Shown here: one piece after another, positions 1,220-17,333 of the stretch
Numbering within the stretch: position 1 is the stretch's first letter
Layout: each line of letters begins with the position of its first letter
Source: Qipengyuania oceanensis
GTDB taxonomy: Bacteria > Pseudomonadota > Alphaproteobacteria > Sphingomonadales > Sphingomonadaceae
Length of the DNA stretch: 64,000 bases
Reading direction: 5' to 3'
Assembly (NCBI RefSeq): GCF_009827535.1
Contig: NZ_WTYN01000001.1
Coordinates: forward strand, 1,364,001-1,428,000
Notes under the pieces: generated by a model
Told to the model about the DNA's origin: nothing
Seen by the model: the letters and a program-made list of their open reading frames with translations, nothing else
The model's database searches: none
Program-made: the position numbers and the translations under genes

Positions 1220-1966
1220 ATGGGATCGCCCGAACCATTACCACCGCCACCGGCGCTCGCCGAGATCGCGCGCGAAGCCCCCGTGGCGCTGTTCCTCGAT
1301 TTCGACGGAACGCTGGTCGACATTGCCGACAGGCCCGAACTGATCGATGTTCCCGGCCATCTTGCCCGCAACCTGCTGCGGCTGGCCGATGCGCTGGCCG
1401 GCCGTCTCGCCGTCATCAGCGGGCGCTCGATCGCCGACCTGCAGCGATATCTGGGCGACGTGCCGCTCGCATTCGGCGGATCGCACGGGCTCGAGGCGCG
1501 GCTTGCCGACGGAACGTCCGCCGCGCACAGCACGACCGGGATCGACGCGAGCCTTGTTTCCGAACTGGAGAGCTTCGTCGCACGGCACGATGGCCTGCAG
1601 CTGGAGACCAAGAGCCTGGGCGCAGCGGTCCATTATCGCGCCGTGCCGCAATTGCAGGACGCGGTGCTCGAGCGGCTCACGGCCCTGTCGCGCCAACACG
1701 CCCTCGCCATCAAGCAGGGCAAGTGCGTGGTCGAACTGCTGCCCCCCGGCGCGTCAAAGGCAGCGGCAGTGGGCGCATTGATGGAACGCGAGCCTTTCGG
1801 CACGGGGATGCCGGTGTTCATCGGCGACGACGTGACCGACGAGGACGGTTTCCTTGAAGCAACCGCGCGGGGCGGCTTCGGAATCGCGGTCGGCGAGCGG
1901 GTTTCGAAAAATGCGCGCTACCGCCTTGCATCGCCCGACGCAGTCCGCGAATGGTGCAAGCTGTGA
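1220..1966 (+). CDS. otsB: trehalose-6-phosphate phosphatase
   Basis: Dephosphorylates trehalose 6-phosphate to trehalose in the cytoplasm. The 248-residue protein is a HAD-superfamily phosphatase: motif I LDFDGTLVD has the nucleophile pair Asp27/Asp29, motif II is VISGRS, and motif IV is GDDVTDED near residue 203, with a VELLPPGASK Lys-bearing motif before it. The frame is open far upstream through the tRNA gene, so the ATG at 1220 is chosen because it lies after the tRNA and just before the conserved core. It forms an operon with the GH15 gene (4-base GTGA overlap if that gene starts at 1963) and otsA. Confidence 0.93.
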   Translation: MGSPEPLPPPPALAEIAREAPVALFLDFDGTLVDIADRPELIDVPGHLARNLLRLADALAGRLAVISGRSIADLQRYLGDVPLAFGGSHGLEARLADGTSAAHSTTGIDASLVSELESFVARHDGLQLETKSLGAAVHYRAVPQLQDAVLERLTALSRQHALAIKQGKCVVELLPPGASKAAAVGALMEREPFGTGMPVFIGDDVTDEDGFLEATARGGFGIAVGERVSKNARYRLASPDAVREWCKL

Positions 1967-3765
1967 GCACCCACGACAGCAGCCTGGAGCTATGGCCCAT
2001 CGGCAATTGCCAGATGAGCGCCCTCGTCGACGAACGCGCTGGCATCGTCTGGGGGTGCATCCCCCGCGTCGATGGCGATCCGGTGTTCTGTTCCCTGCTC
2101 AACGGCGAAAAGCAGGACGAGGGCGTGTGGCGCTTCGAGCTCGAAGGCCAGGTGTCCTCGAGCCAGGAGTATATCCGCAACACGCCGAACCTCGTCACGA
2201 GGCTGACGGCGGAAGACGGCAGCGCCGTCGAGATCCTCGATTTCTGCCCGCGCTACGAGCGCTCGGGGAGGATGTATCGCCCCGTCGCCGTGGTCCGCAT
2301 CGTGCGCCCGATTGCCGGCAGTCCGCGTATTCGCGTGCGGCTCAAGCCGATGCGCGATTACGGTGCCGAGGTGGCAGGCCGGACCAACGGCACCAATCAC
2401 ATCCGTTATCTGGTCGGGCGCCAGGCACTGCGCCTGTCTACCGATGCGCCGGTCGGCTACATCCTGGAAGAACGCACGTTCCGGATCGAGGACGACACGC
2501 ATTTCTTCCTCGGGCCGGACGAGCCCTTCGTCGGCAATCTGCGCGAGGAGGTGCGCCGGATGGAGCAGCTGACCCGCAAGTACTGGCAGCATTGGGTCCG
2601 TGGCCTTGCCACTCCGCTCGAATGGCAGGACGAGGTCATCCGCTGCGCGATCACGCTCAAGCTTTGCCAGCATGAGGAAACTGGCGCGATCGTCGCCGCG
2701 CTGACGACCTCGATCCCCGAGGCACCCGGCAGCGAACGCAACTGGGATTACCGTTACTGCTGGATCCGCGATTCCTATTATACGGTCCAGGCGCTGAACC
2801 GGCTGGGCGCACTCGACGTGCTCGAGAAATACCTCGGTTACCTGCGCAACATCATCGACCAGGCCAAGGGCGGACATATCCAGCCGCTCTATTCGGTGAT
2901 GGGCGTCGCCGAACTGGAAGAAGGCTTCGCGGAAAATCTCGCCGGGTATCGCGGGATGGGGCCGGTGCGCGTCGGCAACGAGGCCTACAAGCAGATCCAG
3001 CACGATTGCTACGGCCAGATCGTGCTGCCTACCGTGCAGGGGTTTTTCGACAAGCGGCTGCTGCGGCTCGCCGATGAAACCGATTTCGCCAGCCTCGAAG
3101 AAGTCGGCGAGATGGCGTGGAACATGTACGACCAGCCCGATGCGGGATTGTGGGAATTCCGCACCCGGCAGGAAGTGCACACCTATTCCGCCGTGATGAG
3201 CTGGGCCGCCTGCGACCGGCTCGCCAATGTCGCTGGCTTTCTCGGCAAGACCGATCGCCAGCAGCTCTGGCAGGGGCGCGCGGATACCATCAAGCAGCGG
3301 GTGCTCGCCGATGCCTGGACCGGGAACGGCGGCGACGGGGGCCATTTCACCGCCAGTTTCGAGAGCGATTACCTCGACGCGAGCCTGCTCCAGCTCATCG
3401 AACTGCGCTTCATCGACCCGCAGGATCCCAAGTTCGTCTCAACCTTCGAACAGCTGGAAAAGGCGCTGCGGCGGGGCGAACACATGCTGCGCTACGCGGC
3501 GGAGGACGATTTCGGCAAGCCGGAAACCGCTTTCAACATCTGCACCTTCTGGCTGATCGAGGCGCTCGCGCTGTCGGATCGCAAGGATGAGGCGCGCCAC
3601 CTGTTCCAGGCGATGCTGCGCCACCGCACCAAATCCGGGCTGTTGAGCGAGGACCTCGATTTCGAATCCGGCGAACTGTGGGGTAACTTCCCCCAGACCT
3701 ACTCGCTGGTCGGGATAATCAATTGCGCAGGCCTGTTGTCGAAAAGCTGGAACACCGTCCGTTGA
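1963..3765 (+). CDS. glycoside hydrolase family 15 protein (possible trehalase or glucoamylase)
   Basis: About 600 residues with the GH15 layout: an N-terminal beta-sandwich domain beginning SLELWPIGNCQMSALVD, then an (alpha/alpha)6 barrel. Family landmarks are NWDYRYCWIRDS near residue 260 and LLSEDLDFESGELWGNFPQ near residue 560, the latter carrying the second catalytic Glu. GH15 members hydrolyse alpha-glucosidic bonds from the non-reducing end; some bacterial members are trehalases. Lying between otsB and otsA, it could recycle trehalose, but substrate is inference. An ATG at 1951 is also in frame; GTG at 1963 gives the GTGA overlap with otsB and starts nearer the conserved region. Confidence 0.88.
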   Translation: MSTHDSSLELWPIGNCQMSALVDERAGIVWGCIPRVDGDPVFCSLLNGEKQDEGVWRFELEGQVSSSQEYIRNTPNLVTRLTAEDGSAVEILDFCPRYERSGRMYRPVAVVRIVRPIAGSPRIRVRLKPMRDYGAEVAGRTNGTNHIRYLVGRQALRLSTDAPVGYILEERTFRIEDDTHFFLGPDEPFVGNLREEVRRMEQLTRKYWQHWVRGLATPLEWQDEVIRCAITLKLCQHEETGAIVAALTTSIPEAPGSERNWDYRYCWIRDSYYTVQALNRLGALDVLEKYLGYLRNIIDQAKGGHIQPLYSVMGVAELEEGFAENLAGYRGMGPVRVGNEAYKQIQHDCYGQIVLPTVQGFFDKRLLRLADETDFASLEEVGEMAWNMYDQPDAGLWEFRTRQEVHTYSAVMSWAACDRLANVAGFLGKTDRQQLWQGRADTIKQRVLADAWTGNGGDGGHFTASFESDYLDASLLQLIELRFIDPQDPKFVSTFEQLEKALRRGEHMLRYAAEDDFGKPETAFNICTFWLIEALALSDRKDEARHLFQAMLRHRTKSGLLSEDLDFESGELWGNFPQTYSLVGIINCAGLLSKSWNTVR

Positions 3766-3772
3766 CCCCTTC

Positions 3773-5152
3773 ATGAGCCGCCTTGTCGTCATCTCCAATC
3801 GCGTCGCCGTTCCCAAGGCGCGCGGAGCGGCGGGTGCGCAGGGCGGTCTGGCAGGGGCGCTGCTCGCCGCGCTCAAGCGGCACACGGGGCTGTGGGTCGG
3901 CTGGTCGGGAGAGGAACATGACGATCCCGCGCTCGAACCCGATGTCCAGACCGCCGACGGCGTCACCACCGCGACGATCGATCTCGCGCCTACGGACGTC
4001 GAGGAATACTATAACGGCTACGCCAATTCGACGCTCTGGCCGCTGTTCCATTATCGTATCGACCTGACCGAATACCGGCGCGAAACCGGCAAGGGCTACG
4101 AACGGGTCAACGAGATCTTCGCCGCCGCTGCCGCGCCCCTGATCGAGCCCGACGACATCGTCTGGGTCCACGATTATCACTTCATCCCGCTGGGCGAGCG
4201 GCTGCGCCGGCACGGTGTTGCCAACAAGCTCGGCTTCTTCCTGCACATTCCGTGGCCGCCGACCCGGCTGCTGGTCTCGCTGCCCTATCACGAGCGGCTG
4301 GTCCGCACGCTGCTTGAATACGACCTGATCGGCTTCCAGTGCGACGAGTGGCTGGAAAGCTTCCTGCACTACTGCCGCAAGGAACTGGGGGCAGAGGTCG
4401 ACGAGGCCAGCGGAAAGATCACGCTGGGCGAGCGTACGGTTACCGCCCGCGCCTATCCGATCGGGATCGACTACGAACATTTCATGGCCCAGGGCGAGAC
4501 CGGCGAGGCGCGCAATGCCCAGCAGCGCATGATCGCCAGCACCCGCCGCCGTACCGCGATGATCGGCGTCGACCGGCTGGACTATTCCAAGGGCCTGCCC
4601 GAGCGGCTCGACGGCCTCGCGCGATTCTTCGAACGCTATCCCGAGCGGGCACGCGAGCTGGTCTTCATCCAGATCGCCCCGCCCAGTCGCGAGGACATCA
4701 GTTCCTACCAGCAGATTCGCGAGGAACTTGAACGCAAGACCGGCCACATCAACGGCGCCTATTCGCAGATCGACATGGTCCCCATCCGTTACGTCAACCA
4801 GGGCCATTCGATGGCGGAACTGTTCGGCATCTACCGCGCGGCCAAGATCGGGCTGGTCACGCCCCTGCGCGACGGGATGAACCTGGTGGCCAAGGAATAT
4901 GTCGCCGCGCAGGACCCGGAGGATCCGGGCGTGCTGATACTGTCGCGCTTCGCCGGTGCGGCCCAGCAATTGCAGGACGCGGTACTGGTCAACCCGCACA
5001 GTCCCGACGACATCACCCACGCGATCCGCACCGCGCTCGACATGCCGCTGGACGAGCGCAAGGCGCGCTGGGAAAAACTCAACGCGGGCGTCCGGGACGA
5101 GAATATCGCGCAATGGACGAACGATTTCGTCGGTGACCTGACAATCGCCTGA
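3773..5152 (+). CDS. otsA: trehalose-6-phosphate synthase
   Basis: GT20 glycosyltransferase that makes trehalose 6-phosphate from an NDP-glucose and glucose 6-phosphate. The 459-residue length is normal. Visible motifs: N-terminal VVISNRV, GGLAGAL near residue 28 (donor-loop), WVHDYHFIPL, the acceptor-side FFLHIPWPP, RLDYSKGLPERL with its Arg/Lys ligands of the sugar nucleotide, and LRDGMNLVAKEYVA near the C-terminus. It starts 7 bp after the GH15 stop, completing an otsB-GH15-otsA operon. Trehalose made here probably serves as compatible solute or stress protectant; no regulator is adjacent. Confidence 0.95.
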   Translation: MSRLVVISNRVAVPKARGAAGAQGGLAGALLAALKRHTGLWVGWSGEEHDDPALEPDVQTADGVTTATIDLAPTDVEEYYNGYANSTLWPLFHYRIDLTEYRRETGKGYERVNEIFAAAAAPLIEPDDIVWVHDYHFIPLGERLRRHGVANKLGFFLHIPWPPTRLLVSLPYHERLVRTLLEYDLIGFQCDEWLESFLHYCRKELGAEVDEASGKITLGERTVTARAYPIGIDYEHFMAQGETGEARNAQQRMIASTRRRTAMIGVDRLDYSKGLPERLDGLARFFERYPERARELVFIQIAPPSREDISSYQQIREELERKTGHINGAYSQIDMVPIRYVNQGHSMAELFGIYRAAKIGLVTPLRDGMNLVAKEYVAAQDPEDPGVLILSRFAGAAQQLQDAVLVNPHSPDDITHAIRTALDMPLDERKARWEKLNAGVRDENIAQWTNDFVGDLTIA

Positions 5153-5238
5153 AATCACAGGTCATCTGCCGTTCGCGGCACTGCCCACTTGCGCTTGGCC
5201 AGCGGCTGTGGTGCATGAGCGCCAAGAGGGAGATACGC

Positions 5239-6477
5239 ATGCTTCGGTTCTGGTTCGGTACGGCCCTGTGGAAGCGCGTGCTCGTCGCAATGGTGCTGGG
5301 GGTCGCGGTCGGCCTGTTCGTCGGCGAGGGTATCGTCGCGATCAAGTGGATGGGCGACCTGTTCATCCGCGCGATCAAGATGCTGGTCGTGCCGCTGATC
5401 TTCTTCAGCCTCGTCAACGGCGTCGTCTCGATCGGCGATATCAACAAGCTCGGCCGGGTCGGCGGACGCGCGATGACCATGTTCATCAGCACCTCGATCA
5501 TCGCGGTGACGACCGGGATCACGCTGGGGCTGGTGTTCACACCGGGTCTCGGCCTCGATTTCACCATGCCTGCCGGGACCGATGTCCCTGCTCCGCCGGA
5601 CCAGACACTGGTCGAGATGATGATCTCGATGGTGCCGGACAATCCCATCGCCGCGATGGCGGAAGGGCAGATCCTGCAACTCATCATCTTCGCCCTGCTG
5701 TTCGGCATCGCGTTGCTGGTCAGCGGCGAGGAAGGAAAGCCGCTCGTCCGCGGCGTCGAGGCAGGTGCTTCGGTCATGCTCAAGCTCACCATGATCGTCA
5801 TGGAACTCACTCCATTCGGCGTATTCGCGCTGATGGCCTGGGTCGCCGGGACGTTCGGGTGGGAGGCCTTGCTGCCGCTCGCGAAGATCGTGGCGCTCAA
5901 TTACGCCGGCTGTTTCGTGATGATCCTGCTGGTCTATCCGGCGCTGGTCCGCTTCGTCGCCAAGCTCAACATCGTCGATTTCTACCGCGGCATCTTCGAT
6001 GCGCAGGCGGTCGCCTTCTCGACCGCTTCGTCGAACGCAACGATCCCCGTGACGCTACGCTGCACGCAGGACAATCTGGGCGTCTCCAAGAGCGTGTCGA
6101 GCTTCGTCGTCTCGCTCGGCGCGACCATCAACATGGACGGGACCGCGATGTATCTCGGCCTCGTCGCGATCTTCGGCGCGCAGCTGTTCGGCATCGATCT
6201 CAACTTCTTCAGCTATCTGATGATCGCGCTGACCGCGACGCTCGGCTCGATCGGCGTCGCGGGGGTACCGGGCGCCGGGCTGGTCATGCTCGGCCTCGTG
6301 CTGAGTTCCGTCGGCGTACCACTCGAAACCATCGCGTTCGTGGCCGGGATCAACCACATCATGGACATGATGCGGACCGCGACCAACGTCACCGGCGACA
6401 GCGCGATCACCGTCACCACGGCGAAACTGTCGAACGAGATCGACATCGCCGAATACGAGTCGGACATCGACGTCTGA
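5239..6477 (+). CDS. dicarboxylate/amino acid:cation symporter (DAACS family)
   Basis: An inner-membrane Na+/H+-coupled symporter of the GltP/DctA type, about 412 residues with about eight hydrophobic segments. Family signatures are the serine-rich reentrant loop FSTASSNATIPVTL, the NMDGTAMY motif that binds cation and substrate, and the C-terminal hairpin GVAGVPGAGLVML. The ATG at 5239 is preferred to the in-frame ATG at 5215 because GAGGGAG lies about 7 bases upstream of 5239. Exact substrate (glutamate, aspartate or C4-dicarboxylate) cannot be told from sequence. It stands alone between otsA and a CoA-transferase-family gene. Confidence 0.9.
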   Translation: MLRFWFGTALWKRVLVAMVLGVAVGLFVGEGIVAIKWMGDLFIRAIKMLVVPLIFFSLVNGVVSIGDINKLGRVGGRAMTMFISTSIIAVTTGITLGLVFTPGLGLDFTMPAGTDVPAPPDQTLVEMMISMVPDNPIAAMAEGQILQLIIFALLFGIALLVSGEEGKPLVRGVEAGASVMLKLTMIVMELTPFGVFALMAWVAGTFGWEALLPLAKIVALNYAGCFVMILLVYPALVRFVAKLNIVDFYRGIFDAQAVAFSTASSNATIPVTLRCTQDNLGVSKSVSSFVVSLGATINMDGTAMYLGLVAIFGAQLFGIDLNFFSYLMIALTATLGSIGVAGVPGAGLVMLGLVLSSVGVPLETIAFVAGINHIMDMMRTATNVTGDSAITVTTAKLSNEIDIAEYESDIDV

Positions 6478-6502
6478 CCAGATCACTTCCGGGAGAGAAT
6501 AC

Positions 6503-7588
6503 ATGTCCGAAACCGCTTCGAACGGTCCGCTGACCGGCCTCAAGGTCGTCGAATTCCAGGGCATCGGCCCGGGCCCGCACGTCGCGATGATGCTCGCCGA
6601 TATGGGCGCCGAAGTCGTCCGGATCGAGCGCGAGGGCCACCAGCCGATGAACACCGTGGTCGAGCGCGCGCGACATCGGGCGGCGGTCGACCTGAAGTCT
6701 GCTGACGGGCAGGCGTTCGTCAGGAAAGCGCTCGCCCACGCGGACGTGCTGATCGAAGGCTTCCGCCCCGGGGTGATGGAGCGCCTGGGCCTCGGCCCGG
6801 ACGAGACGCTCGCCGCCAATCCGCGCCTTGTCTACGCCCGCATGACCGGCTGGGGGCAGGACGGCCCGCTGGCGCAGGCTGCCGGACACGACCTCAACTA
6901 TATCGCGATCACCGGCGCGCTCGACGCGATCGGCACGAAGGGCGAACTGCCGATCCCGCCGCAGAACCTCGTCGGCGACTTCGGCGGTGGTTCGATGTAT
7001 TGCGCGATGGGCATTCTGGCGGCGCTGTTCGAACGGCAGACATCGGGCAAGGGACAGGTCGTGGATGCCGCGATCGTCGATGGCGTGACCAGCCTGATGA
7101 GCTTCTTCTACGGCCAGCCGCCTAGTGCCCTGCGCTCGACCGTGCGCGGCACCGGCCTGCTCGGCGGGGCGGCGCATTTCTACCGGTGCTACGAATGTGC
7201 CGACGGCAAGGAGATCAGCGTCGGCGCGATCGAACCGCAATTCTACGCCGAGCTGCTGCAGCGCGCCGATGCGCCCGAGGAATTGCGCCAGGGCCAGATG
7301 GATACCGGCAACTGGGACGATTACACGGACAAGCTCGCGGCGATGTTCAAGACCAGGACCCAGGCCGAATGGTGCGAACTGCTCGAAGGGACGGACGCCT
7401 GTTTCGCGCCGGTCGTGCCGCTCGATGCGGCAAAGGATCATCCGCACATGAAGGCGCGCAACGCCTATGTCGAACACGACGGCCGGATGCACACCGCTCC
7501 CGCGCCGCGTTTCGACCGGACGCCGAATACCATTCGATCGAGCACGCAGGACGGCGAGCAGGTCGTCGAAAGCTGGTCGCGCGGATAG
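6503..7588 (+). CDS. CaiB/BaiF family protein, alpha-methylacyl-CoA racemase-like
   Basis: Class III CoA-transferase fold, 361 residues, preceded by a good ribosome site (GGGAGAGA). The sequence is closest to alpha-methylacyl-CoA racemases: start LTGLKVVEFQGIGPGPH, MLADMGAEVVRIE, AGHDLNYIAITGAL with His129 and VGDFGGGSMYCAMGI with Asp159. The 30-residue spacing matches the His/Asp catalytic pair known from the mycobacterial racemase. The Asp of true CoA-transferases is therefore likely used as part of the racemase pair. Role: epimerising 2-methyl-branched acyl-CoAs before beta-oxidation (family knowledge). Substrate unknown. Confidence 0.88.
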   Translation: MSETASNGPLTGLKVVEFQGIGPGPHVAMMLADMGAEVVRIEREGHQPMNTVVERARHRAAVDLKSADGQAFVRKALAHADVLIEGFRPGVMERLGLGPDETLAANPRLVYARMTGWGQDGPLAQAAGHDLNYIAITGALDAIGTKGELPIPPQNLVGDFGGGSMYCAMGILAALFERQTSGKGQVVDAAIVDGVTSLMSFFYGQPPSALRSTVRGTGLLGGAAHFYRCYECADGKEISVGAIEPQFYAELLQRADAPEELRQGQMDTGNWDDYTDKLAAMFKTRTQAEWCELLEGTDACFAPVVPLDAAKDHPHMKARNAYVEHDGRMHTAPAPRFDRTPNTIRSSTQDGEQVVESWSRG

Positions 7589-7665
7589 CCTTCCTGACAC
7601 CGACCGCTTGACGGACGGGGCCGGTCGGTCGCAGATTGCCTTCCAGGGGACAGGGAGGGCAATCG

Positions 7666-9600
7666 ATGCGCGCATTTCAACGGTCGGTGTTGCTGGCTGC
7701 AGCCGTTCTGACGCTGGCTGCCTGCGGGACAGGCAGCGATGTCGACGAGGCCGCGCGCGGCAATGGCGAGAACACCATCGCGCTCTCGGAGTTTCCCGAT
7801 CGGCCCTATTGGGGCGACACGCATCTTCACACCGACAACTCGATCGACGCGTTCGGCTTCGGCGTACGACTGGGGCCGGAAGCCGCGCTGCAGTTCGCCA
7901 GCGGGCAGGAAGTGACCTCGAGCACCGGGGTTAAGGCAAAGCTCGACCGGCCGCTCGATTTCCTGGTCATCTCTGACCATTCCGACGGGCTCGGCACGAC
8001 CCGCCGGCTTTACGATGCGCCGCGCATCGCGGTGCTGGCGATGGGCGACGACACGGTGCTGCGCTGGTACGACATGATGCACGAAAGCCCCGAGCAATCG
8101 CAGCGGGCCATCGGCGAGCTGATCGCGGCGGCGGCGAACGACGACCTGCCGCCAGCGCTGCTTTCGAGCCCCGAAGAGCAGGCCGAGAACACCCGCAGCA
8201 TCTGGACCGCCCATCTCGATATGCTCGACCGCTACAACAAGCCGGGCCGTTTCACCGCGCTTGCCGGGTTCGAATACACGCTCATGCCGGACGGGAACAA
8301 TCTGCACCGCGTCGTGATGTTCCGCGACGGAAAGAATGCGACCGGGCAGGTCCTCCCCTATCCCGGACTCAATACCAAGGTCGAAGGGCTGTGGGACTAC
8401 ATGGACAGCTACGAGCAGGCGACCGGCGGGCAGGCACTTGCCATCCCGCACAATTCGAACCTGTCCAACGGGCTCATGTTCCAGCTGACGATGCCCGACG
8501 GCGGCGCGATGACTGCCGAGTATGCGCGGCGCCGGGCGGCGCGCGAGCCGGTGGTCGAGATCACGCAGATCAAGGGCGACAGCGAAACCCACCCGTTCCT
8601 TTCGCCGAATGACGAGTTCGCCGAATTCGGCGTCAAGGGCTGGGAACTGGGCAACCTGCCCCTAACCCGCAGGACGACCAACGACATGCTGGCGGGCAAT
8701 TACGTTCGCGAGGCGCTCAAGCGCGGCATCTCGCTGGAAGAGAAACTCGGCGTCAATCCGTACATGTTCGGCGTCGTGGGATCGACCGACAGCCACACCG
8801 CGCTCGCCACGGCGGACGAGGACAACTTCTTCGGCAAGCACACCGGCAACGAACCGGCGGTCAGGGACCGGGCGCTGCATGGTCAGAACCTGGGCACCAA
8901 TGTCGGCCGCTTCGGCTGGCATTACCTCGCAGGTGGCTATGCCGCCGCCTGGGCGCGCGGCAACACCCGGGCAGAAATCTTCGACGCGTTCAAGCGGCGC
9001 GAGGTCTATGCAACGACGGGACCGCGCATCGTGCTGCGGGTTTTCGCCGGTTACGATTTCACCGACAAGGACTGGGACGGCGACTGGGTCCGTTCCGGTT
9101 ATACCCGCGGGGTTCCGATGGGCGGCGTGCTGGCCGACGATGGCCGTGCGCCGACTTTCCTGATCTCGGCGCTGAAGGACCCGGAAGGCGCCAATCTCGA
9201 CCGGGTGCAGGTCGTCAAGGGCTGGGTCGATGCGAAAGGACAGCTGCAGGAACGCGTCTACGATGTCGCCTGGTCGGACCGAAAGGGCCGCCGCGCCGTC
9301 GACGGCAAGCTGGCCCCGGTCGGCGACACCGTCGATCGCAGGACCGCGACCTACGAGAACAGCATCGGCGCAGCGACGCTGAAAACGGCATGGACCGATC
9401 CCGACTACACCGTCGCTCAGAAAGCGTTCTACTACGTTCGCGTGCTCGAAATCCCGACCCCGCGCTGGACCCTGTTCGATGCCGTGCGCTTCGGCATCAA
9501 GCTGCCGCCCGAAGCGATGGCGGACGCGGTCGCGCAGGAACGCGCCTACAGCTCGCCGATCTGGGTCAAGCGCGTCGGCAGCGCAGCGGACGAAGCCTGA
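7666..9600 (+). CDS. DUF3604 family lipoprotein, PHP-like metallohydrolase
   Basis: A 644-residue exported protein with lipoprotein signal peptide (MRAFQRS...LAAC, Cys20). The ATG at 7666 follows GGGAGG at 7653-7658 and is preferred over the TTG at 7636. Metal-binding motifs resemble the PHP phosphoesterase fold: GDTHLHTDNS (His53, His55), VISDHSD (Asp104, His105), a middle IPHNSNLSNG and STDSH (Asp375, His377). DUF3604 proteins are related to CehA/McbA metallohydrolases, so a periplasmic phosphoesterase or ester hydrolase is plausible; no substrate is known. First gene of a three-gene unit with a parvulin-like protein and a HupE/UreJ-like protein. Confidence 0.85.
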   Translation: MRAFQRSVLLAAAVLTLAACGTGSDVDEAARGNGENTIALSEFPDRPYWGDTHLHTDNSIDAFGFGVRLGPEAALQFASGQEVTSSTGVKAKLDRPLDFLVISDHSDGLGTTRRLYDAPRIAVLAMGDDTVLRWYDMMHESPEQSQRAIGELIAAAANDDLPPALLSSPEEQAENTRSIWTAHLDMLDRYNKPGRFTALAGFEYTLMPDGNNLHRVVMFRDGKNATGQVLPYPGLNTKVEGLWDYMDSYEQATGGQALAIPHNSNLSNGLMFQLTMPDGGAMTAEYARRRAAREPVVEITQIKGDSETHPFLSPNDEFAEFGVKGWELGNLPLTRRTTNDMLAGNYVREALKRGISLEEKLGVNPYMFGVVGSTDSHTALATADEDNFFGKHTGNEPAVRDRALHGQNLGTNVGRFGWHYLAGGYAAAWARGNTRAEIFDAFKRREVYATTGPRIVLRVFAGYDFTDKDWDGDWVRSGYTRGVPMGGVLADDGRAPTFLISALKDPEGANLDRVQVVKGWVDAKGQLQERVYDVAWSDRKGRRAVDGKLAPVGDTVDRRTATYENSIGAATLKTAWTDPDYTVAQKAFYYVRVLEIPTPRWTLFDAVRFGIKLPPEAMADAVAQERAYSSPIWVKRVGSAADEA

Positions 9601-9609
9601 GCCCGCACC

Positions 9610-10419
9610 GTGCACCGACCGTCCTGGACGCGCGAGCCGCTGGTCCATTTCCTTTTCGGCGGGGCTCTCCTGTTCGCTTTCTTCGCCTGGCGGGGAGAGG
9701 AAGCCGATCCCGCCAGCCGGACCATCGCGGTTGGGCGCGCGGAGCAGGCGGCACTCGCTCAGCGCTTCGAAGCGACCATGCGTCGACCGCCGACCGATGC
9801 CGAACTCGACACGCTCGTCGATCAATATGTCCGCGAGGAAGTGCTGTATCGCGAAGCCCTCCGGCTCGGGCTCGACCGCGATGACGCAGTGGTCCGCCGC
9901 AGGCTGGCGCAGAAGATGGACGAGATAGCCGGTGCGCGCGCCGAGACCGCCCCGCTCGACGATGCCGTGCTGCGAAAATGGCTCGCAACGCATCCCGAAC
10001 GGTTCGCCAGCGATACCGCCTTCACCTTCGACCAGCTGTGGTTCGAAAACCGTGACGATGCCGACACGGCGCTCGCCAAATTGCGCGCCGGCGCGGACTG
10101 GGAAAAGCTCGGACAGACGATCGACCTGCCGCGTACGGTAGAGGCGCGGCCCGCCCGCGATGTCGCCAGTCGGTACGGAACCGAATTCCTCGCCGCGCTG
10201 CGCTCCGGCAAAGCCGATGGACGATGGTCGGGCCCGATCCGCTCGGGCTTCGGCTGGCACCTGGTCAGGCTGGAAGAGGCGGCAATCGGCGCGGTCCCTT
10301 CCTTCGAGGATCTCCGTGCGGACGTCGAGAACGACTGGCGATCCTCGACCATCTCGCAGCGGCGCGAGGATGCCTATCGCGTCCTGCGCGACGGATACAC
10401 GGTCACGGTGGCCGAGTGA
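9610..10419 (+). CDS. membrane-anchored parvulin-type peptidyl-prolyl isomerase
   Basis: A 269-residue protein starting at GTG 9610, nine bases after the DUF3604 stop. A hydrophobic anchor HFLFGGALLFAFFAW (about residues 13-27) precedes a helical SurA/PpiD-like N-domain (PTDAELDTLVDQYVREEVLY). A C-terminal parvulin-like domain ends with GPIRSGFGWHLVRLEE, matching the family's GPxxSxFGxHxV signature. The N-terminal parvulin strand (TFDQLWF) lacks the usual HILV-type active-site residues, so it may be a chaperone rather than an active isomerase. Probably acts in the periplasm on the products of its two neighbours (inference). Confidence 0.82.
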   Translation: MHRPSWTREPLVHFLFGGALLFAFFAWRGEEADPASRTIAVGRAEQAALAQRFEATMRRPPTDAELDTLVDQYVREEVLYREALRLGLDRDDAVVRRRLAQKMDEIAGARAETAPLDDAVLRKWLATHPERFASDTAFTFDQLWFENRDDADTALAKLRAGADWEKLGQTIDLPRTVEARPARDVASRYGTEFLAALRSGKADGRWSGPIRSGFGWHLVRLEEAAIGAVPSFEDLRADVENDWRSSTISQRREDAYRVLRDGYTVTVAE

Positions 10420-11387
10420 GAGTGCTTCTCGCGCTGCTCGTCTTGCTCGCGCTCGCACAGCCCGCCGCTGCGGACGAATTGCGCCCCTCCTCGATCGAGT
10501 TGAGCGAACAGGCACAAGGGCGCTGGCACCTCGGCTGGAAACGCAATCTCGGCCAACCATCCACCGGGCAGCCGGAGACGCCCGCCTACCCGCGGAACTG
10601 CCGACCGGTCGGCGAACCGGTCGAGCGGCGCGTTGCCGCGCTGAGCGTGGTCGGCAATCTCGAACTGCGGTGCAGCGGTTCGCTTGCGGGACAGCGGATC
10701 GGCTGGCCGGGCCTGGTCGGCGAGGATGCGCTCGTGCGGATCGTGCCGCTCGACGGCGGCGCGCAGACCCATCTGCTCACGCCGACCGCGCCGATGGCCG
10801 CGATCACCGGCGAGCCCGGCCGCTGGCAGGTCGCGCGCAGCTATTTCGAACTCGGCGTGATCCACATCCTCGAAGGGTGGGATCACCTGCTGTTCGTCAT
10901 CGCACTGGTGCTGCTGGTCGTGCGCGGATGGCAGGTAGTCAAGGCGGCAACCGCTTTCACCCTGGCCCACTCGCTGACGCTGACGGCAGTCACCTTCGGC
11001 TTCTTCGGTCTGCCGGCACGCCCGGTCGAAGCCGCGATCGCCCTCTCGATCGTGTTCCTCGCGGTCGAACTCGCCAGGGGTGACCGCACCAGCCTGACCC
11101 GCCGCTGGCCCTGGGCGGTTGCCTTCGCTTTCGGCCTCCTCCACGGCTTCGGTTTTGCCGGGGCGCTGCGCGACATCGGCCTGCCGCAGGGGGAGGTTCC
11201 GGCTGCGCTGGTCGCCTTCAATCTCGGGGTGGAAGCTGGCCAGGTGCTGGTCATCCTGGCGGTCATCGTCCTGCGGCTGACAACGCGCCGCCTGGTGCCC
11301 TGGGTCGAGGCACCGGCGCTTCGCACGGCGACCTATGCGATCGGCATCATCGCCAGCTTCTGGCTCATCGAGCGGCTGATCGCCTGA
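10416..11387 (+). CDS. HupE/UreJ family membrane protein
   Basis: Starts with GTG at 10416, overlapping the PPIase stop by 4 bases (GTGA). The 323-residue product has a cleavable signal peptide (VLLALLVLLALAQPAAA), a periplasmic domain of about 130 residues, then about six membrane segments. The membrane part holds HILEGWDHLLFVIALV, AHSLTLTAV and LLHGFGFAG. This is the HupE/UreJ_2 layout. HupE and UreJ relatives transport nickel or cobalt, but this long form is poorly characterised. Placed after a metal-dependent hydrolase-like lipoprotein, a metal-supply role is conceivable but unproven. Confidence 0.87.
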   Translation: MRVLLALLVLLALAQPAAADELRPSSIELSEQAQGRWHLGWKRNLGQPSTGQPETPAYPRNCRPVGEPVERRVAALSVVGNLELRCSGSLAGQRIGWPGLVGEDALVRIVPLDGGAQTHLLTPTAPMAAITGEPGRWQVARSYFELGVIHILEGWDHLLFVIALVLLVVRGWQVVKAATAFTLAHSLTLTAVTFGFFGLPARPVEAAIALSIVFLAVELARGDRTSLTRRWPWAVAFAFGLLHGFGFAGALRDIGLPQGEVPAALVAFNLGVEAGQVLVILAVIVLRLTTRRLVPWVEAPALRTATYAIGIIASFWLIERLIA

Positions 11388-11470
11388 TGATCGCGTCGAT
11401 TTTCGGCGTGTGATCAACTTGCCATTCACCCCTGTGCTCCTACATTGTCGGCAACGAAAGGAATCCGTCG

Positions 11471-13432
11471 ATGAGCGACCAGCACAACCCGCAGGATCCG
11501 GAAGGAAACGGGCCGAATCCCTGGGTGAAAAGCCTGATGATCTGGGGCGGGATCTTTCTCGCGCTCCTGGTCGTGGTCTCCGCTTTCGGTAACACCGGGC
11601 AGACTGCCGGTACCCAGATCGGCTATTCGGACTTCCGCGATCGCGTGGCCGAAGGGTCGGTCAAGGAAGTGCAGATCGCGCCCGACCGGATCACCGGCAC
11701 GCTCAAGAACGACGAGGCTTTCACCACCATTCCGGTCGGCAGCGATACGCAGCTGACAAAGCTGCTCGACGACAACGGCGTGGAATATTCGGGCCAGACG
11801 CCCGAAGAGCCCAACCTGCTGTTCTACATTCTCGTCCAGTCGCTCCCGTTCATCCTCATCCTCGGCATCGCCTTCTTCGCGCTGCGCCAGGTGCAAAAGG
11901 GCGGCGGCGGCGGCGCTATGGGCTTCGGCAAGTCCAAGGCCAAGCTGCTGACCGAGCGTCAGGGCAAGGTGACGTTCGACGATGTCGCCGGCATCGACGA
12001 AGCGCGCGAGGAGCTGGAGGAGATCGTCGAGTTCCTCAAGGACCCGCAGCGCTTCTCCAAGCTTGGCGGCCAGATTCCCAAGGGCGCGCTGCTGGTTGGC
12101 TCGCCGGGTACCGGCAAGACGCTGCTCGCCCGCGCGATCGCGGGTGAGGCAGGTGTGCCCTTCTTCACCATTTCGGGTTCCGACTTCGTCGAGATGTTCG
12201 TCGGCGTGGGTGCAAGCCGCGTGCGCGACATGTTCGAACAGGCGAAGAAGAATGCGCCCTGCATCGTCTTCATCGACGAAATCGACGCGGTCGGTCGCCA
12301 TCGCGGCCACGGCCTCGGCAATTCGAACGACGAGCGCGAGCAGACGCTCAACCAGCTGCTGGTCGAGATGGACGGGTTCGAGGCGAACGAAGGCATCATC
12401 ATCATCGCCGCGACCAACCGGCCCGACGTGCTCGACCCGGCGCTGCTGCGTCCCGGCCGCTTCGACCGCCAGGTGGTCGTACCCGTCCCAGACATCGACG
12501 GGCGCGAGAAGATCCTCGCGGTGCACATGAAGAAGGTGCCGCTGGCGCCCGATGTCAATCCGCGCACGATCGCGCGTGGCACACCCGGTTTCTCCGGCGC
12601 GGATCTCGCCAACCTCGTCAACGAGGCGGCGCTGCTCGCCGCCCGCCGCAAGAAGCGCCTCGTCGCCATGCAGGAGTTCGAGGACGCGAAGGACAAGGTC
12701 ATGATGGGCAGCGAACGCCGCTCTATGGTCATGACCGACGACGAGAAGAAGATGACCGCCTATCACGAGGCCGGCCACGCGCTGGTCAGTCTCAACGAGC
12801 CGGCATCGGACCCGATCCACAAGGCGACCATCATCCCGCGCGGACGTGCGCTGGGCATGGTGATGCGCCTGCCGGAGCGGGACAATTACTCGTACCACCG
12901 CGACAAGATGCATGCCGACCTCGCCGTCAGCATGGGTGGCCGCGTGGCGGAAGAAATCATCTTCGGTCATGACAAGGTGTCGAGCGGTGCCTCGTCGGAT
13001 ATCCAGTACGCGACCAAGCTGGCGCGCAACATGGTCACCAAGTGGGGCATGTCCGACAAGCTCGGTCCGCTCCAGTACGAGGAAAGCCAGGAAGGCTATC
13101 TCGGCATGGGCCAGACGGCGCGCACGATGGGATCGGCCGAGACCAACAAGCTGATCGATGCCGAAATCAGGGAATTGGTCGAAGGCGCGCACAAGCGCGC
13201 GACCGAAGTCCTGACCGAGAAGGAAGACCAGCTCCACCTTCTCGCCCAGGCCATGCTCGAGTACGAAACGCTGACCGGCGACGAGATCATCGAGCTGCTC
13301 GACAATGGCAAGATCGATCGCCCCGATCAGCCGCGTGGGCCGGTCAAGGTGCAGCCGATCGGCGGCAGCTCGGTCCCCAAGGCAGGCCGCAAGTACGGAA
13401 CCGACGGCGACGCGGCACCACAGGGCGCGTGA
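11471..13432 (+). CDS. ftsH: ATP-dependent zinc metalloprotease FtsH
   Basis: Membrane-bound AAA protease, 653 residues, the usual length. Two membrane segments (about residues 21-39 and 117-138) flank a periplasmic domain. Walker A is GSPGTGKT (210-217), Walker [11 protein letters not shown], the arginine finger region RPGRFDR, and the zinc site HEAGH at 432-436 with a downstream Asp in the peptidase domain. The start follows AAGGAA. FtsH degrades misfolded membrane proteins and short-lived cytoplasmic targets. The Ser in Walker A position 2 (GSPG rather than GPPG) is a mild variation. Confidence 0.97.
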
Positions 13433-13441
13433 TGCGTTGAC

Positions 13442-13460
13442 CCCTCGTCATCCACGAGGG
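13442..13460 (+). promoter_or_regulatory. hairpin covering the ribosome-binding site of the small lipoprotein gene
   Basis: CCCTCGT (13442-13448) and ACGAGGG (13454-13460) are perfect complements with a 5-nt loop. The right arm contains the GAGGG of the Shine-Dalgarno sequence that serves the ATG at 13470. The structure could restrict translation of the lipoprotein or act as a weak terminator after ftsH. No U-run follows, so translational control is the better guess. Confidence 0.4.
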
Positions 13461-13469
13461 AGTAATTCA

Positions 13470-13718
13470 ATGCGCATCATCGTTCCGACCGCCCTGGCCG
13501 CAGCCGTCCTGCTGTCCGCCTGTAGCGAACAAACGCAGGACAGCGCCGAAGTCATGGCGGAACGCGCGGCCGAAGATACCAAGGCCAATGCCGAGGTCGT
13601 CGAGAACGCCGTGCGCGAGCAGACCATCGAAGTCGCCGACACCGTCAGCGAACGGCTCAAGGAAGACGAGAAGGACGACCCGAACCAGGGCGACGGCCAG
13701 CTCGACGGGACCGACTGA
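13470..13718 (+). CDS. small predicted lipoprotein
   Basis: An 82-residue product starting at ATG 13470, nine bases after GAGGGAG. The lipobox is LSAC at residues 15-18. The mature chain is highly charged and mostly helical: EVMAERAAEDTKANAEVV then TVSERLKEDEKDD, ending in an acidic tail. No catalytic motif. Located 37 bp after ftsH, so it may be co-transcribed. Family not recognised; an envelope lipoprotein is all that can be said. Confidence 0.7.
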   Translation: MRIIVPTALAAAVLLSACSEQTQDSAEVMAERAAEDTKANAEVVENAVREQTIEVADTVSERLKEDEKDDPNQGDGQLDGTD

Positions 13719-13727
13719 CCCGCATTC

Positions 13728-13768
13728 CGGGGCCGGGATTTTCAACTGCGGTTCATCATCCGGCCCCG
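13728..13768. repeat. inverted repeat, possible transcription terminator
   Basis: CGGGGCCGG (13728-13736) and CCGGCCCCG (13760-13768) are perfect complements separated by 23 bases, directly after the lipoprotein stop. No U-tract follows, so it is at best a weak terminator or a stable RNA element between two small secreted-protein genes. Confidence 0.35.
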
Positions 13769-13806
13769 AGATACGTCATCGCATTTTGCAACTGGAGCAT
13801 TCCTGC

Positions 13807-14184
13807 ATGCGTTTCGTCCTGGCTGCCTGTCTTCTATCCATCGCCTCCGTCCCCGCGTTCGCCAGCCCGGCGGACGTCAATGCGGAGGAGTTCTACCGCG
13901 ATGCCATCGCCCTCCAGCAGAAGGGCATGGGGGCGATGTTCGACAAGCGGACCAAGCCGCGGATGGAGCAGATGAAGGCCGCTGGCATGGCTGCCAAGGC
14001 GCGCAACGACGCCGCGACCAAGCGGGGCAATCCGATCTATTGCGTCAGCGACGCGCAGCGCAAGAAGGGCATGGGCCCGCAGCAGGTCGTCGCCATGCTC
14101 GGCAAGGTCCCGCAGGCGCAGCGCCAGAAATCGACCCTTACCGATGCCTGGATGGCGGCGCTGGTGCGCGAATACCCCTGCTAG
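13807..14184 (+). CDS. small exported protein, Rap1a/Tai-like pattern, unknown function
   Basis: 125 residues from ATG 13807. The first 20 residues (RFVLAACLLSIASVPAFAS) form a signal peptide cleaved near AFA-S. The mature protein has a Lys/Met-rich helical half and a C-terminal module with two Cys residues (IYCVSD and the terminal EYPC). Between them lies PQQVVAMLGKVPQAQRQKSTL. The paired Cys with an intervening helix resembles the C-terminal layout of Rap1a/Tai-type periplasmic proteins, but the resemblance is loose. Convergent with the DUF3667 gene, 18 bp away. Confidence 0.65.
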   Translation: MRFVLAACLLSIASVPAFASPADVNAEEFYRDAIALQQKGMGAMFDKRTKPRMEQMKAAGMAAKARNDAATKRGNPIYCVSDAQRKKGMGPQQVVAMLGKVPQAQRQKSTLTDAWMAALVREYPC

Positions 14185-14202
14185 TCCGCCCCGGGGTTTG
14201 CG

Positions 14203-15270
14203 TCAGTAGGCGCCGAGCAACAGCAGCACCTGCAGGAACAGCAGCAGGATGACCCAGATGAACAGCGAAAGCACCATCAGCCGCCAGAAAGCGGAGAAGC
14301 GCGACAGGTCGTAACCGTAGCGTAGCTGCTTGTAGAGGTGGAACGGCGGGATGAAGACCATCGCCGTCATCGCCAGCCAGCCCAGCGACGGCAGCAGCGT
14401 GAACAGCGATAGCACCACGAACAACAGGGTCATGAAGCTGAGCGAATAGGTCACGAAAATCGCGTGATCGTAAGCCCTGAAACGCCGTTTCCAGGCGAAC
14501 AGCAGCCAGACGAAGGGTATCGACAGCGGTATCAGCAACCAGCTGAATTTATAGAAGTTGGCCTGCATCTTGTAGAGCATGAGGCCCGGGTTCGCGCGCC
14601 ATTTCTTGACCACGCCACGGTCGATCGCATCGATTCCTGTGAGATTGACTTCCTGATACACCCGCTTGCCATCGGCCGTCTGGAAAGAGAAATTCTCGCC
14701 CGTGTCGATCAGCTGGAGTGCGCGCTCGAGGCCCGCGATCCGCGTTTCGATCTCCTCGCGTCGCCCGGTCTCGACCTCGGCGGCGTCGAGTTCGGCTAGC
14801 TTTTCCTTCTCTTGCGCCAGTGCTGTCTCGGCCTGTACCCGTGCTGTGGCCGGCCCGTTGCCGAATTCGGTCGGCGCGGTCAGCCCGACCATCTGGAATA
14901 CCGCGAACATCAGGAAGACACCGAAGAGGAACAGAGCCATCGGCGATACGAAGCGCGCGCGCTGCCCTTCGATGTAGCGGCGCGTGAGCTGGCCCGGCTT
15001 GAACACCAGCATCGGGAGCGTGTGCCAGAACTTGCCTTCGAAATGCAGCGCCCCGTGCATCAGATCGTGCATGAAGCCGCCGATCGTCCGGTGAACATGG
15101 CCCTGCTGCCCGCAGGCCGAGCAATACGCCCCCGAAAGCGGCGCGCCGCAATTGAGGCAGTTTTCCGGCTGGTGCGGGTGCGGCGACTTGGCCCCGGAAT
15201 CGGGCTCGAACGCACGCGCGAACAGGCCCCCTTCCGCGGCGGTGCCCAGCCCGTCGAAAATATCGCTCAC
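14203..15270 (-). CDS. DUF3667 domain membrane protein with zinc ribbon
   Basis: 355 residues. The N-terminus has a CxxC...CxxC zinc ribbon (NCLNCGAPLSGAYCSACGQQ). The DUF3667 core follows: GGFMHDLMHGALHFEGKFWHTL, LVFKPGQLTRRYIEGQRARFVSPMALFLF, then a coiled-coil-like insert (ALAQEKEKLAELDAAEVE). Four C-terminal hydrophobic segments end at LLLFLQVLLLLGAY. DUF3667 proteins are integral membrane proteins of unknown function that are common in Bacteroidetes and Sphingomonads. Divergent from the DUF3072 gene. Confidence 0.87.
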   Translation of the reverse strand: MSDIFDGLGTAAEGGLFARAFEPDSGAKSPHPHQPENCLNCGAPLSGAYCSACGQQGHVHRTIGGFMHDLMHGALHFEGKFWHTLPMLVFKPGQLTRRYIEGQRARFVSPMALFLFGVFLMFAVFQMVGLTAPTEFGNGPATARVQAETALAQEKEKLAELDAAEVETGRREEIETRIAGLERALQLIDTGENFSFQTADGKRVYQEVNLTGIDAIDRGVVKKWRANPGLMLYKMQANFYKFSWLLIPLSIPFVWLLFAWKRRFRAYDHAIFVTYSLSFMTLLFVVLSLFTLLPSLGWLAMTAMVFIPPFHLYKQLRYGYDLSRFSAFWRLMVLSLFIWVILLLFLQVLLLLGAY

Positions 15271-15369
15271 GCGCGCCTCCCTGTCGCACGCTGCTTACCA
15301 AGCTTTCACGCACCGCGTCGAGCGGAACATTTGAAGAACATCGGCGTTGATTGTGCAAGGAGACAGATG

Positions 15370-15603
15370 ATGAGTGCACCCCGGCCTACCGAACATCCCA
15401 AGGCAGACCCCGTGTCGAACGCGCAGAAGGACCCCGAGAACTGGACCACCGGTGACGAGCGCATGACCGGCGCACAGGCGAGTTACCTGAAGACCTTGAG
15501 CGAGGAAGCGGGCGAGCCCGATCGCTACGATCCGGATCTGACCAAGGCCGAAGCATCGCAGCGGATCGACGCCTTGCAGGACGCAACCGGCCGCGGAACC
15601 TGA
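15370..15603 (+). CDS. DUF3072 family small protein
   Basis: 77 residues, acidic and hydrophilic. The core NAQKDPENWTTGDERMTGAQASYLKTL followed by a TKAEASQRIDALQ helix matches the DUF3072 pattern. Two adjacent ATGs exist (15367 and 15370); AAGGAGA sits at a better distance from the second. Function of the family is unknown; the small two-helix domain resembles short nucleic-acid or protein-interaction modules. Followed by a clear terminator hairpin. Confidence 0.8.
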   Translation: MSAPRPTEHPKADPVSNAQKDPENWTTGDERMTGAQASYLKTLSEEAGEPDRYDPDLTKAEASQRIDALQDATGRGT

Positions 15604-15616
15604 CCTCCCAAAACAA

Positions 15617-15643
15617 AAAGGCCGCCCCGATGGGACGGCCTTT
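15617..15643. terminator. bidirectional rho-independent terminator
   Basis: AAAGGCCGCCCC (15617-15628) pairs with GGGACGGCCTTT (15632-15643) with one G-T type mismatch and a 3-nt loop. T-rich sequence follows on the plus side and an A-rich stretch precedes it, so it can stop both the DUF3072 transcript and the convergent rpoZ transcript. Confidence 0.8.
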
Positions 15644-15666
15644 GTTGTCTTGGGATTGCGAACCGG

Positions 15667-16014
15667 TCAGCCCGGATCGTAATCGGAGCCGATCGAGGTC
15701 GAACGGGTCGGGGCAGCCGCAGTGATCCGCAGCGCTTCGGCCGACTGGCTGAGCGAGCCGACTTCATCGGCCTCGTCCTCGTCGTCAGGCAGGATCTTCT
15801 GCAGATTGGTCACGACCGCTTCGTGCAGGTCCTTGGGACGCATTGTCTGTTCGGCGATTTCGCGCAGGGCGACGACCGGGTTCTTGTCGCGATCGCGATC
15901 GACGGTCAGTTCCGCGCCGCCGGAAATCTCGCGTGCGCGCTGCGCCGAAAGCAGCACCAGGTCGAACCGGTTCGGAACCTTGTCGACGCAATCTTCAACT
16001 GTAACGCGCGCCAT
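15667..16014 (-). CDS. rpoZ: DNA-directed RNA polymerase omega subunit
   Basis: 115 residues from the ATG at 16014, which has GGAG eight bases upstream; the longer frame to 16059 lacks a ribosome site. The start [22 protein letters not shown] and VVALREIAE are hallmarks of RpoZ. It binds the beta' subunit and aids RNA polymerase assembly, and in proteobacteria forms part of ppGpp site 1. The acidic C-terminal tail is a common alphaproteobacterial extension. No spoT/relA neighbour is present here. Confidence 0.95.
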
Positions 16015-16124
16015 CGGGCACTCCGTAAATTCAAATAGGTTGTCTGGAAGGCTCGCCACCTAGGGTTTGCCCCTGCCAGAGTCAAGGAATTGCACCGGCA
16101 GGAAGGGCAGTCTAAGCGCGTCTG

Positions 16125-17315
16125 ATGACGAACGAGCCCGTAGCGCAGAGCACTTCGAGCGAAGTCGCCTATCACGATCCCGAACCTTTCGAGATGACCG
16201 CCCAGGGCCTCGACCTGCGTTTCGTGCCGGCAGGCCCGGACCGGCTCGACACCCTGGTCGGCCTCATCGACGGCGCGAACACGCGCGTGAGGCTGTGCTT
16301 CTACATCTTCGCCGACGATGCCTCGGGTATCCGCGTGCGCGACGCGCTTACTCGGGCAGCAAAGCGCGGGGTCGACGTCCACCTCATCATCGACGGCTTC
16401 GGGGCGGAAGCATCGAAGGAGTTCTTCAGGTCGCTGACGGACGCGGGCGGCAGCTTTCACGAATTCAGCGCCAAGTGGAGTCGGCGCTACCTCATCCGCA
16501 ACCATCAGAAGATCGTGTTGGTCGACGGCAAGACCGCGATGATCGGCGGCTTCAACGTCCAGGATGCCTATTTCGACACGCCCGATTGCAACGGCTGGCA
16601 CGATCTGGGCGTCGTTGTCCGGGGCGAAGCGGTCGACATGCTGGCGAAGTGGTACGACGAGCTCAACGACTGGGTGTGCCGGCCGAATGCGCAGTTTCGC
16701 GCGATCCGCCGCAAGGTCAGGGAATGGAACCCGGGAGAAGGCACCGTCCGGCTGCTGATCGGCGGCCCGACGCGCGGTCTGTCGAGCTGGGCGCGCTGCG
16801 TCGGCAAGGACCTGGCAGAAGGTGACCGGCTGGACATGGTGATGGCCTATTTCTCCCCGCCCAAGCGCCTCACGCGGCGGATCGGCAGGATGGCGAGCGG
16901 CGACAAGGCGCGGCTTGTGATGGCGGGCAAATCGGACAATGCCGCCACCATCGGGGCGACCCGCTCGCTCTATCGTTATCTCCTCAAGCGCGGCGCGGAC
17001 ATCCACGAATTCGCGCCATGCAAGCTGCACATGAAGCTGATCGTGATCGACGATGCGGTCTATATCGGCAGCGCGAATTTCGACATGCGCAGCCTCTACC
17101 TCAATCTCGAGCTGATGCTGCGGATCGAGGATGCAGCGCTCGCCGCCCGCATGCGCGAATTCATCGAACTGCACCTGCCAGCCTCGAAACACGTCACCGT
17201 CGAAAGTCACCGTGCACAGAACACGCTGTGGAACCGCATCCGCTGGAACCTGTCGTGGTTCCTGGTGTCGGTCGTCGACTACACGGTCAGTCGCCGGCTC
17301 AACCTGGGCCTCTAG
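16125..17315 (+). CDS. phospholipase D-family protein (cardiolipin synthase-like)
   Basis: 396 residues with two HKD half-sites of the phospholipase D superfamily. The first is RNHQKIVLVDGKTAMIGG (H-x-K-x4-D, near residues 126-133). The second is LHMKLIVIDDAVYIGSANFD (near residue 300). There is no N-terminal membrane hairpin as in ClsA, so it is closer to the ClsB/ClsC-like or cytosolic forms. Likely transfers phosphatidyl groups to make cardiolipin at the inner membrane; other PLD activities cannot be excluded. Divergent from rpoZ. Confidence 0.88.
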   Translation: MTNEPVAQSTSSEVAYHDPEPFEMTAQGLDLRFVPAGPDRLDTLVGLIDGANTRVRLCFYIFADDASGIRVRDALTRAAKRGVDVHLIIDGFGAEASKEFFRSLTDAGGSFHEFSAKWSRRYLIRNHQKIVLVDGKTAMIGGFNVQDAYFDTPDCNGWHDLGVVVRGEAVDMLAKWYDELNDWVCRPNAQFRAIRRKVREWNPGEGTVRLLIGGPTRGLSSWARCVGKDLAEGDRLDMVMAYFSPPKRLTRRIGRMASGDKARLVMAGKSDNAATIGATRSLYRYLLKRGADIHEFAPCKLHMKLIVIDDAVYIGSANFDMRSLYLNLELMLRIEDAALAARMREFIELHLPASKHVTVESHRAQNTLWNRIRWNLSWFLVSVVDYTVSRRLNLGL

Positions 17316-17333
17316 GCCGACCCGAGGCGCGCT

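Follow-up and report, generated by a model that had tools for sequence, protein, structure and literature searches.

What brings an exported enzyme, a parvulin-like protein and a relative of nickel permeases together in one gene unit? The question is raised by three consecutive genes in a 64,000-nucleotide stretch of the genome of Qipengyuania oceanensis (contig NZ_WTYN01000001.1, positions 1,364,001 to 1,428,000 of the forward strand), hereafter called the window. The genes encode a DUF3604 protein (D), a PpiC/Rotamase_2 protein (P) and a HupE_UreJ_2 protein (H). An initial annotation of the window had described them as a functional envelope unit. From our comparative analyses, we conclude that the unit of D, P and H is not a local accident, and that its members are co-inherited across proteobacteria. 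As to its function, we give roughly even chances to the reading that P and H are an inner-membrane accessory pair which folds and metallates the exported D.

Conservation of the gene unit and a dedicated H subfamily

All three reading frames were recovered as initially annotated, with nine bases between D and P, and with four bases (GTGA) shared by the stop codon of P and the GTG start of H. This tight arrangement is common: by our own gene calls, in which starts are approximate, the overlap of P and H was exactly four bases in 71 of 109 adjoining pairs, and D and P were at most 30 bases apart in 83 of 99 pairs. A search with D as the query yielded 237 loci. In the best 80 of these (L031-L110, scored by tblastn and mostly from the same family as the window; L numbers denote loci and G numbers genomes), D, P and H followed each other in this order at 74, and at four more the contig ended just after D.

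The survey was extended to 398 proteobacterial genomes spread over the phylum, of which 24 contained a total of 36 full-length D genes (E-value <1e-190, which excludes partial or weak matches in G122, G162, G031, G243 and G130). A neighbourhood survey of DUF3604 with HupE/UreJ_2, as suggested in the initial annotation, placed H within 5 kb of 28 of these 36 genes, and at least one such pair was present in 22 of the 24 genomes. The HupE_UreJ_2 profile (PF13795) scored above its cut-off in all 24, compared with 96 of the 398 genomes overall. The order of the genes was variable, since H was found ahead of D in G274, G070 and G320, P-H was convergent to D in G067 and G321, and P-H was located elsewhere in the genome, distant from D, in G301 and G262. 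Six genomes had more D genes than P-H pairs (3:1 in G321 and G174, 3:2 in G127, and 2:1 in G262, G075 and G220), while by our own count D was the less numerous in none of the 24. We therefore read the P-H pair as serving D, and not D as serving the pair.

D was also detected on plasmids, in 78 records that are chiefly from rhizobia. Ten of these were viewed, from Rhizobium, Sinorhizobium, Ensifer, Ruegeria, Rhodobacter, Salipiger and one unclassified Rhodobacteraceae strain; seven carried the full triad, including those of Sinorhizobium strains (L112, L117), and in two of the seven P and H preceded D. In a second class of the same phylum, that of G234, which we take to be Gammaproteobacteria, D matches were found in 35 of 369 genomes, and 31 regions were fetched from 22 of them (G234 and G031 occur in both samples, and G234 was already present as L127). 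D, P and H stood together in 13 of these regions, from 12 genomes, including triads with a divergent D that scored 293-490 bits against the D profile (L323, L325, L331 and L333); L326 had D and P. PF13795 was matched in 20 of the 22 genomes. Co-occurrence outside close relatives, on which the initial annotation had made its functional unit depend, is thus documented in the 398 genomes, on plasmids and in the second class.

The H proteins of the triads belong to one dedicated subfamily. In a tree of 64 H, a branch with a Shimodaira-Hasegawa approximate likelihood ratio test (SH-aLRT) value of 93 had on one side 43 triad H and four H from P-H pairs, namely those of G321 (with three convergent D close by), G301 and G262 (whose D lies elsewhere in the genome) and G162 (D remnant). 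On its other side stood 17 H, of which 15 had no P and two (L162 and L163) came from P-H pairs with different surroundings. When 60 further H loci from the same 398 genomes (omitting the matches in G014 and G287, the partial match G107:C89 and matches under about 30 bits) and 13 second-class H were added, a tree of 128 H separated 52 triad-type rows from 73 H without P and three other P-H (SH-aLRT 99), and the triad H of both classes fell in the same subfamily. This larger tree was built by a quick method from just a few of the Erythrobacteraceae-type triad rows and with long H trimmed to their last 360-430 residues; the placement of some long rows is less sure. L139 (G147) counts as a pair by adjacency only. 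Only one of the 60 added H was triad-type (L290, G348). Triad-type H are now known in 26 genomes, of which 24 have a full D, G162 has a D remnant and G348 has no D match; the association with D gives a Fisher value of 2e-36, with shared ancestry ignored.

Some individual loci deserve mention. In G031 (L155, 7896-8897), a frame of 333 residues begins like a DUF3604 lipoprotein and continues, in frame, as the latter half of a HupE_UreJ_2 protein. A deletion across a former D-P-H unit is the probable origin of this fusion, which would preserve the order of that unit. On a contig labelled Halieaceae (L085), the triad H nests among Erythrobacteraceae rows yet has histidine as its first mature residue, and reflects either transfer or mis-binning.

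Predicted properties of the three proteins

The match of D to DUF3604 (PF12228) extends over profile positions 3-590 of 591 (E-value 1.2e-237, 790.5 bits) and is above the curated cut-off. Its N-terminus is a signal peptide with the lipobox LAAC. The name lipoprotein, given to D initially, suits most of the window's family and not D in general: a simple pattern, applied to approximate starts, found a lipobox in 58 of 77 D of the window's locus group versus 11 of 45 elsewhere. An AlphaFold model of D (mean predicted local distance difference test (pLDDT) 79, predicted template modelling score 0.85, residues 378-423 unreliable) resembled 3e38, a two-domain PHP-like protein according to its structure title, with a Z score of 16.8 and a root mean square deviation (rmsd) of 3.6 over 232 aligned residues; D ends in a C-terminal beta-sandwich, and 3e38 likewise has a C-terminal beta-domain. 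Further PHP structures matched as well (2anu, Z 16.7; PsfC (7rty), 13.1; RNase AM, 9.3), well above the other folds compared. These values come from a VIA-align re-examination of Foldseek candidates; among the 50 matches listed by Foldseek itself there was no PHP structure.

Ten candidate metal ligands of D, assigned by motif and not from coordinates (H53, H55, D104, H105, E203, H214, H262, H309, D375 and H377), are each kept by 49 or more of the 53 diverse members compared. Their pattern, HxH, DH, E, H and DxH, is the usual PHP ligand pattern, and the full set of PHP-like ligands claimed for D earlier is corroborated by both fold and conservation. The Pfam PHP profile (PF02811) did not match D at E-values up to 0.1, no convincing relative of D or of H turned up when the PDB was searched by sequence, and a profile-profile comparison of DUF3604 with CehA/McbA, for which few CehA rows were usable, was weak. 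Judging from the model and from a G243 protein described below, D is probably an exported metallohydrolase with a PHP fold that uses metal. The literature searched, which covered few subscription journals, described no function for DUF3604 and mentioned it only as a table entry in one paper.

The surroundings of D offer several separate observations. A 642-residue protein of G243 (C2:1148451-1149509, L156) matched two profiles weakly, with about 39 bits summed against DUF3604 (cut-off 20.4) and 60.8 bits against CehA_McbA, below the cut-off of 80, and by these scores may bridge the two families. Sulfatase-like genes lie within five genes of the triad at L113, L138, L140, L142 and L144 (three recognized by Pfam, that of L113 by annotation and that of L144 by similarity only), accompanied in L142 by a gene for a formylglycine-generating enzyme. 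Near D in L129 (12401-13441) and L134 (10135-11121) are secreted-looking proteins of 346 and 328 residues, alike by eye, with early cysteines and no Pfam match at an E-value of 0.001.

P matched Rotamase_2 (E-value 3e-13, 51 bits, cut-off 27), and consists of a single N-terminal membrane segment with the motif EPLxHF, a linking stretch and a PpiC-like domain. Of the two parvulin active-site histidines, the second (H217) is kept in all 46 members compared, while the first is replaced by glutamine in 35 of these 46 and in the window P. With the first histidine replaced, isomerase activity is uncertain and a chaperone-like action seems just as likely. Hence, of the membrane-anchored foldase proposed initially, the anchor and the PpiC-like domain stand, and the isomerase activity is in doubt.

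H matched PF13795 strongly (E-value 2e-45, 154.4 bits, cut-off 24.5) and PF04955 weakly (35.6 bits). Its model (mean pLDDT 88.8) has a periplasmic beta-domain at about residues 20-133 and seven predicted membrane helices, in agreement with the earlier description of a relative of nickel and cobalt carriers with its own periplasmic domain. In model comparisons, this domain resembled ZrgA (Z 10.4), PA4063 (Z 9.4) and the Ang-1 domain 9gce (Z 7.4, rmsd 3.2, 107 residues aligned), although the tool regards Z values below 8 as uncertain. HX5DH and FHGxAHGxE are the classical motifs of HupE/UreJ nickel permeases. The former reads HILEGWDH in the window, and H150, D156, H157, H185, E218, H243 and E273 of the membrane domain are conserved in 47 of 47 members.

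The predicted mature N-terminus of the window H is DELRP, with the signal peptide cleavage site placed by eye. Mature residue 1 is histidine (His1) in most H outside the window clade and aspartate (Asp1) in that clade. Asp1 also occurs in the H of L122, L127, L138, L144, L154 and L290, and perhaps in L275, which is outside the triad-type H; about five changes between the two residues were counted on the first H tree. According to the available text on Ang-1, its domain binds copper and nickel, copper being held by the N-terminal histidine, and metal capture for the HupE/UreJ-2 permease was proposed (PMC12537917). Given the swap from histidine to aspartate, this site is not directly transferable to the window H. 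A coupling of Asp1 in H to a lipid-anchored D was considered and rejected, as there are only three to four independent pairs and His1 occurs with a lipobox D in L319 and L331. The tally of 41 rows was 17 with Asp1 and lipobox, 17 with His1 and no lipobox, four with His1 and lipobox and three with Asp1 and no lipobox; L157_Hx, which reads AYAHNV and has His1, was excluded.

One or two short HupE/UreJ-like proteins are encoded beside the triad or D cluster in L129 (13438-14594), L147 (8262-9469) and L114 (16036-16635), and FHGxAHGxE does occur in short HupE proteins of all three loci. L129 and L147 have a pair each, in which the second protein is very diverged. Short H of another branch adjoin CzcBC-like efflux genes, as read without a family scan. 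In Sphingobium sp. ba1, a HupE/UreJ-type gene located in an efflux cluster is reported to have shown the strongest nickel induction of any gene (PMC5557971).

The features of the locus are collected in the table below. Of 75 related loci scanned, 62 have CTTGAC in the 130 bases preceding D, and in many of 25 rows compared by eye a GCGCACA-like element follows about 17-18 bases past it; the retention of these elements makes it probable that the triad has its own transcript start upstream of D. The 653-residue protein starting at 11471, downstream of H, is presumably FtsH. No Rfam match at the gathering threshold was found in window positions 1-20000. In Rhizobium indicum (L111, 13945-16520), a metallo-beta-lactamase-fold protein and a CobW-type GTPase are encoded after the triad.

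Features of the D-P-H locus, in window positions
Feature	Position	Strand	Description and basis
D, DUF3604 lipoprotein	7666..9600	+	644 aa; Pfam PF12228 and predicted structure
P, membrane-anchored PpiC/Rotamase_2 protein	9610..10419	+	269 aa, GTG start; Pfam
H, HupE/UreJ_2 protein	10416..11387	+	323 aa, GTG start; Pfam and predicted structure
CTTGAC, -35-like hexamer of the conserved promoter	7607..7612	+	directly upstream of D; sequence and related loci

Possible roles of P and H, and alternative explanations

In the proposed mechanism, D would be an exported PHP-type metallohydrolase, lipid-anchored in the family of the window, and would be served by P and H as a dedicated accessory pair with coupled translation. 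From its anchorage in the inner membrane, P would help the exported D to fold, whereas H, by means of its periplasmic domain and membrane core, would hold or move a transition metal, so that the multi-metal site of D is filled. We infer both an action of the P-H pair on D and a delivery of metal from H to D. A narrower version is more tentative, and we think it less likely than not: folding and metallation of the secreted PHP hydrolase would be the joint task of a parvulin-like foldase specific to this client and a HupE-type membrane protein, with a metal preference altered in the window lineage by the N-terminal swap from histidine to aspartate. The hydrolase with dedicated partners of the initial annotation is supported by the conserved unit and by the genetic and biochemical link of the HupE family to metals (PMC12537917 and PMC5557971, in their available text), a genetic link to metals that the annotation had required of H; its supply of metal to D is not borne out by the N-terminal histidine, by FHGxAHGxE or by regulator sites.

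Several results weigh against the proposed mechanism. The analyses brought out no direct connection of H to the metal of D. The window H has LHGFGFAGA in place of FHGxAHGxE, and in its clade the metal-binding N-terminal histidine is replaced by aspartate in a domain with two histidines. Boxes for Zur, Fur, PhoB, NikR, CueR, Irr/Mur, CRP and LexA, sought with consensus strings in 124 regions upstream of D, were none of them clearly above 10 shuffles. D occurs without P or H nearby in L109 and L110, on three of the ten plasmids viewed, and in 17 of the 31 second-class regions, many of which lie on short contigs. Among the genomes of that class, PF13795 is not matched in G441 and G598, and an adjoining P-H is missing beside the D of G663, G755 and G701; G598, G701 and G755 are only 71-72% complete. 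Conversely, P and H are present and D absent in G348, and related P-H pairs outside the triad branch have no D beside them (L162, L163 and L302). The distant pair of L162 (7426-13892) follows genes for a TonB-dependent receptor, a PepSY_TM protein and a cytochrome c, and pairs of the P-H type may therefore serve other clients too.

The main rival, which we consider unlikely, sees metal acquisition in the unit: D would hydrolytically free metal from an extracellular or periplasmic ligand, H would capture and import it, and P would fold the exported parts. Metal capture and uptake are what has been proposed for the HupE/UreJ-2 anglerases in the available text (PMC12537917), and the likeness of the H domain to zinc-acquisition proteins, the ExbB/ExbD/TonB genes before the triad in Ruegeria (L113) and the extra short HupE-like proteins in L114, L129 and L147 fit this idea. 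It accords less well with the excess of D paralogues over P-H, with Zur, Fur and NikR sites no more frequent than in shuffles, with the loss of His1 in the window clade, and with TonB genes beside just one of ten annotated plasmid loci.

Next in rank, and likewise improbable, is a role of D in nutrient scavenging, as a phosphoesterase or a hydrolase of similar kind, which P-H would help to fold or to pass the membrane, with no metal role for H. That H retains HX5DH and further histidines and glutamates in all 47 members, and that the wider HupE family is metal-linked, argue for a metal role of H, even though the PHP fold of D, the sulfatase-like genes near five loci (one with a formylglycine-generating enzyme gene) and the lack of FHGxAHGxE in H would suit a scavenging enzyme. 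The frequent presence of D on plasmids, chiefly of rhizobia, with the triad on most of those viewed, might even indicate an ancestral operon that horizontal transfer has kept intact, with no mechanism shared by its genes; we regard this as very improbable, since the partners persist when unlinked (G301 and G262) or rearranged, and a single H subfamily is involved.

Relation to known systems

The role proposed here for P has a precedent. Maturation of the metalloprotein NifH depends on the PpiC protein NifM, according to the available text (PMC12691677); there, too, a PpiC protein would attend to a single metalloprotein, in that case the nitrogenase iron protein. In the anglerases Ang-1 and Ang-2, as in H, a secreted domain at the N-terminus is followed in the same chain by a HupE_UreJ_2 membrane domain; the Ang-1 domain is of about 175 residues with a 100%-conserved His1, whereas that of the window H has about 115 residues and Asp1, and the neighbours mentioned in the available text are DUF4198, indigoidine A-like and PfkB proteins, and not DUF3604 or PpiC (PMC12537917). 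The fold of the H periplasmic domain is shared with ZrgA and PA4063, described in the available sources as periplasmic proteins of zinc acquisition, but the window H lacks His-rich loops and is fused to a HupE domain.

With the PHP metallohydrolases (3e38 and 2anu; CehA/McbA family), D shares the PHP fold, the ligand pattern and, as in 3e38, a C-terminal beta-domain; it differs in being exported, in forming its own family PF12228 and in scoring below the Pfam PHP profile. HupE/UreJ nickel permeases (PF04955), such as HupE of R. leguminosarum, have HX5DH and the membrane core in common with the window H, which is distinguished by the absent FHGxAHGxE and the extra periplasmic domain. We know of no HupE partner for NifM-NifH. 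A unit composed of D, P and H was not described in the literature searched, with its few subscription journals, which agrees with the initial annotation. The parts are of known kinds; the fixed D-P-H combination and the Asp1 form of H are new.

The acquisition of the right metal by exported enzymes outside the cytoplasm is understood for few systems. In its available text, the anglerase paper assigns no client enzyme to HupE/UreJ-2 proteins (PMC12537917). A fixed partnership of enzyme and helpers makes both the function of DUF3604 and the client of HupE/UreJ-2 testable. The tendency of the three genes to stay together across proteobacteria suggests that P and H exist to make D work.

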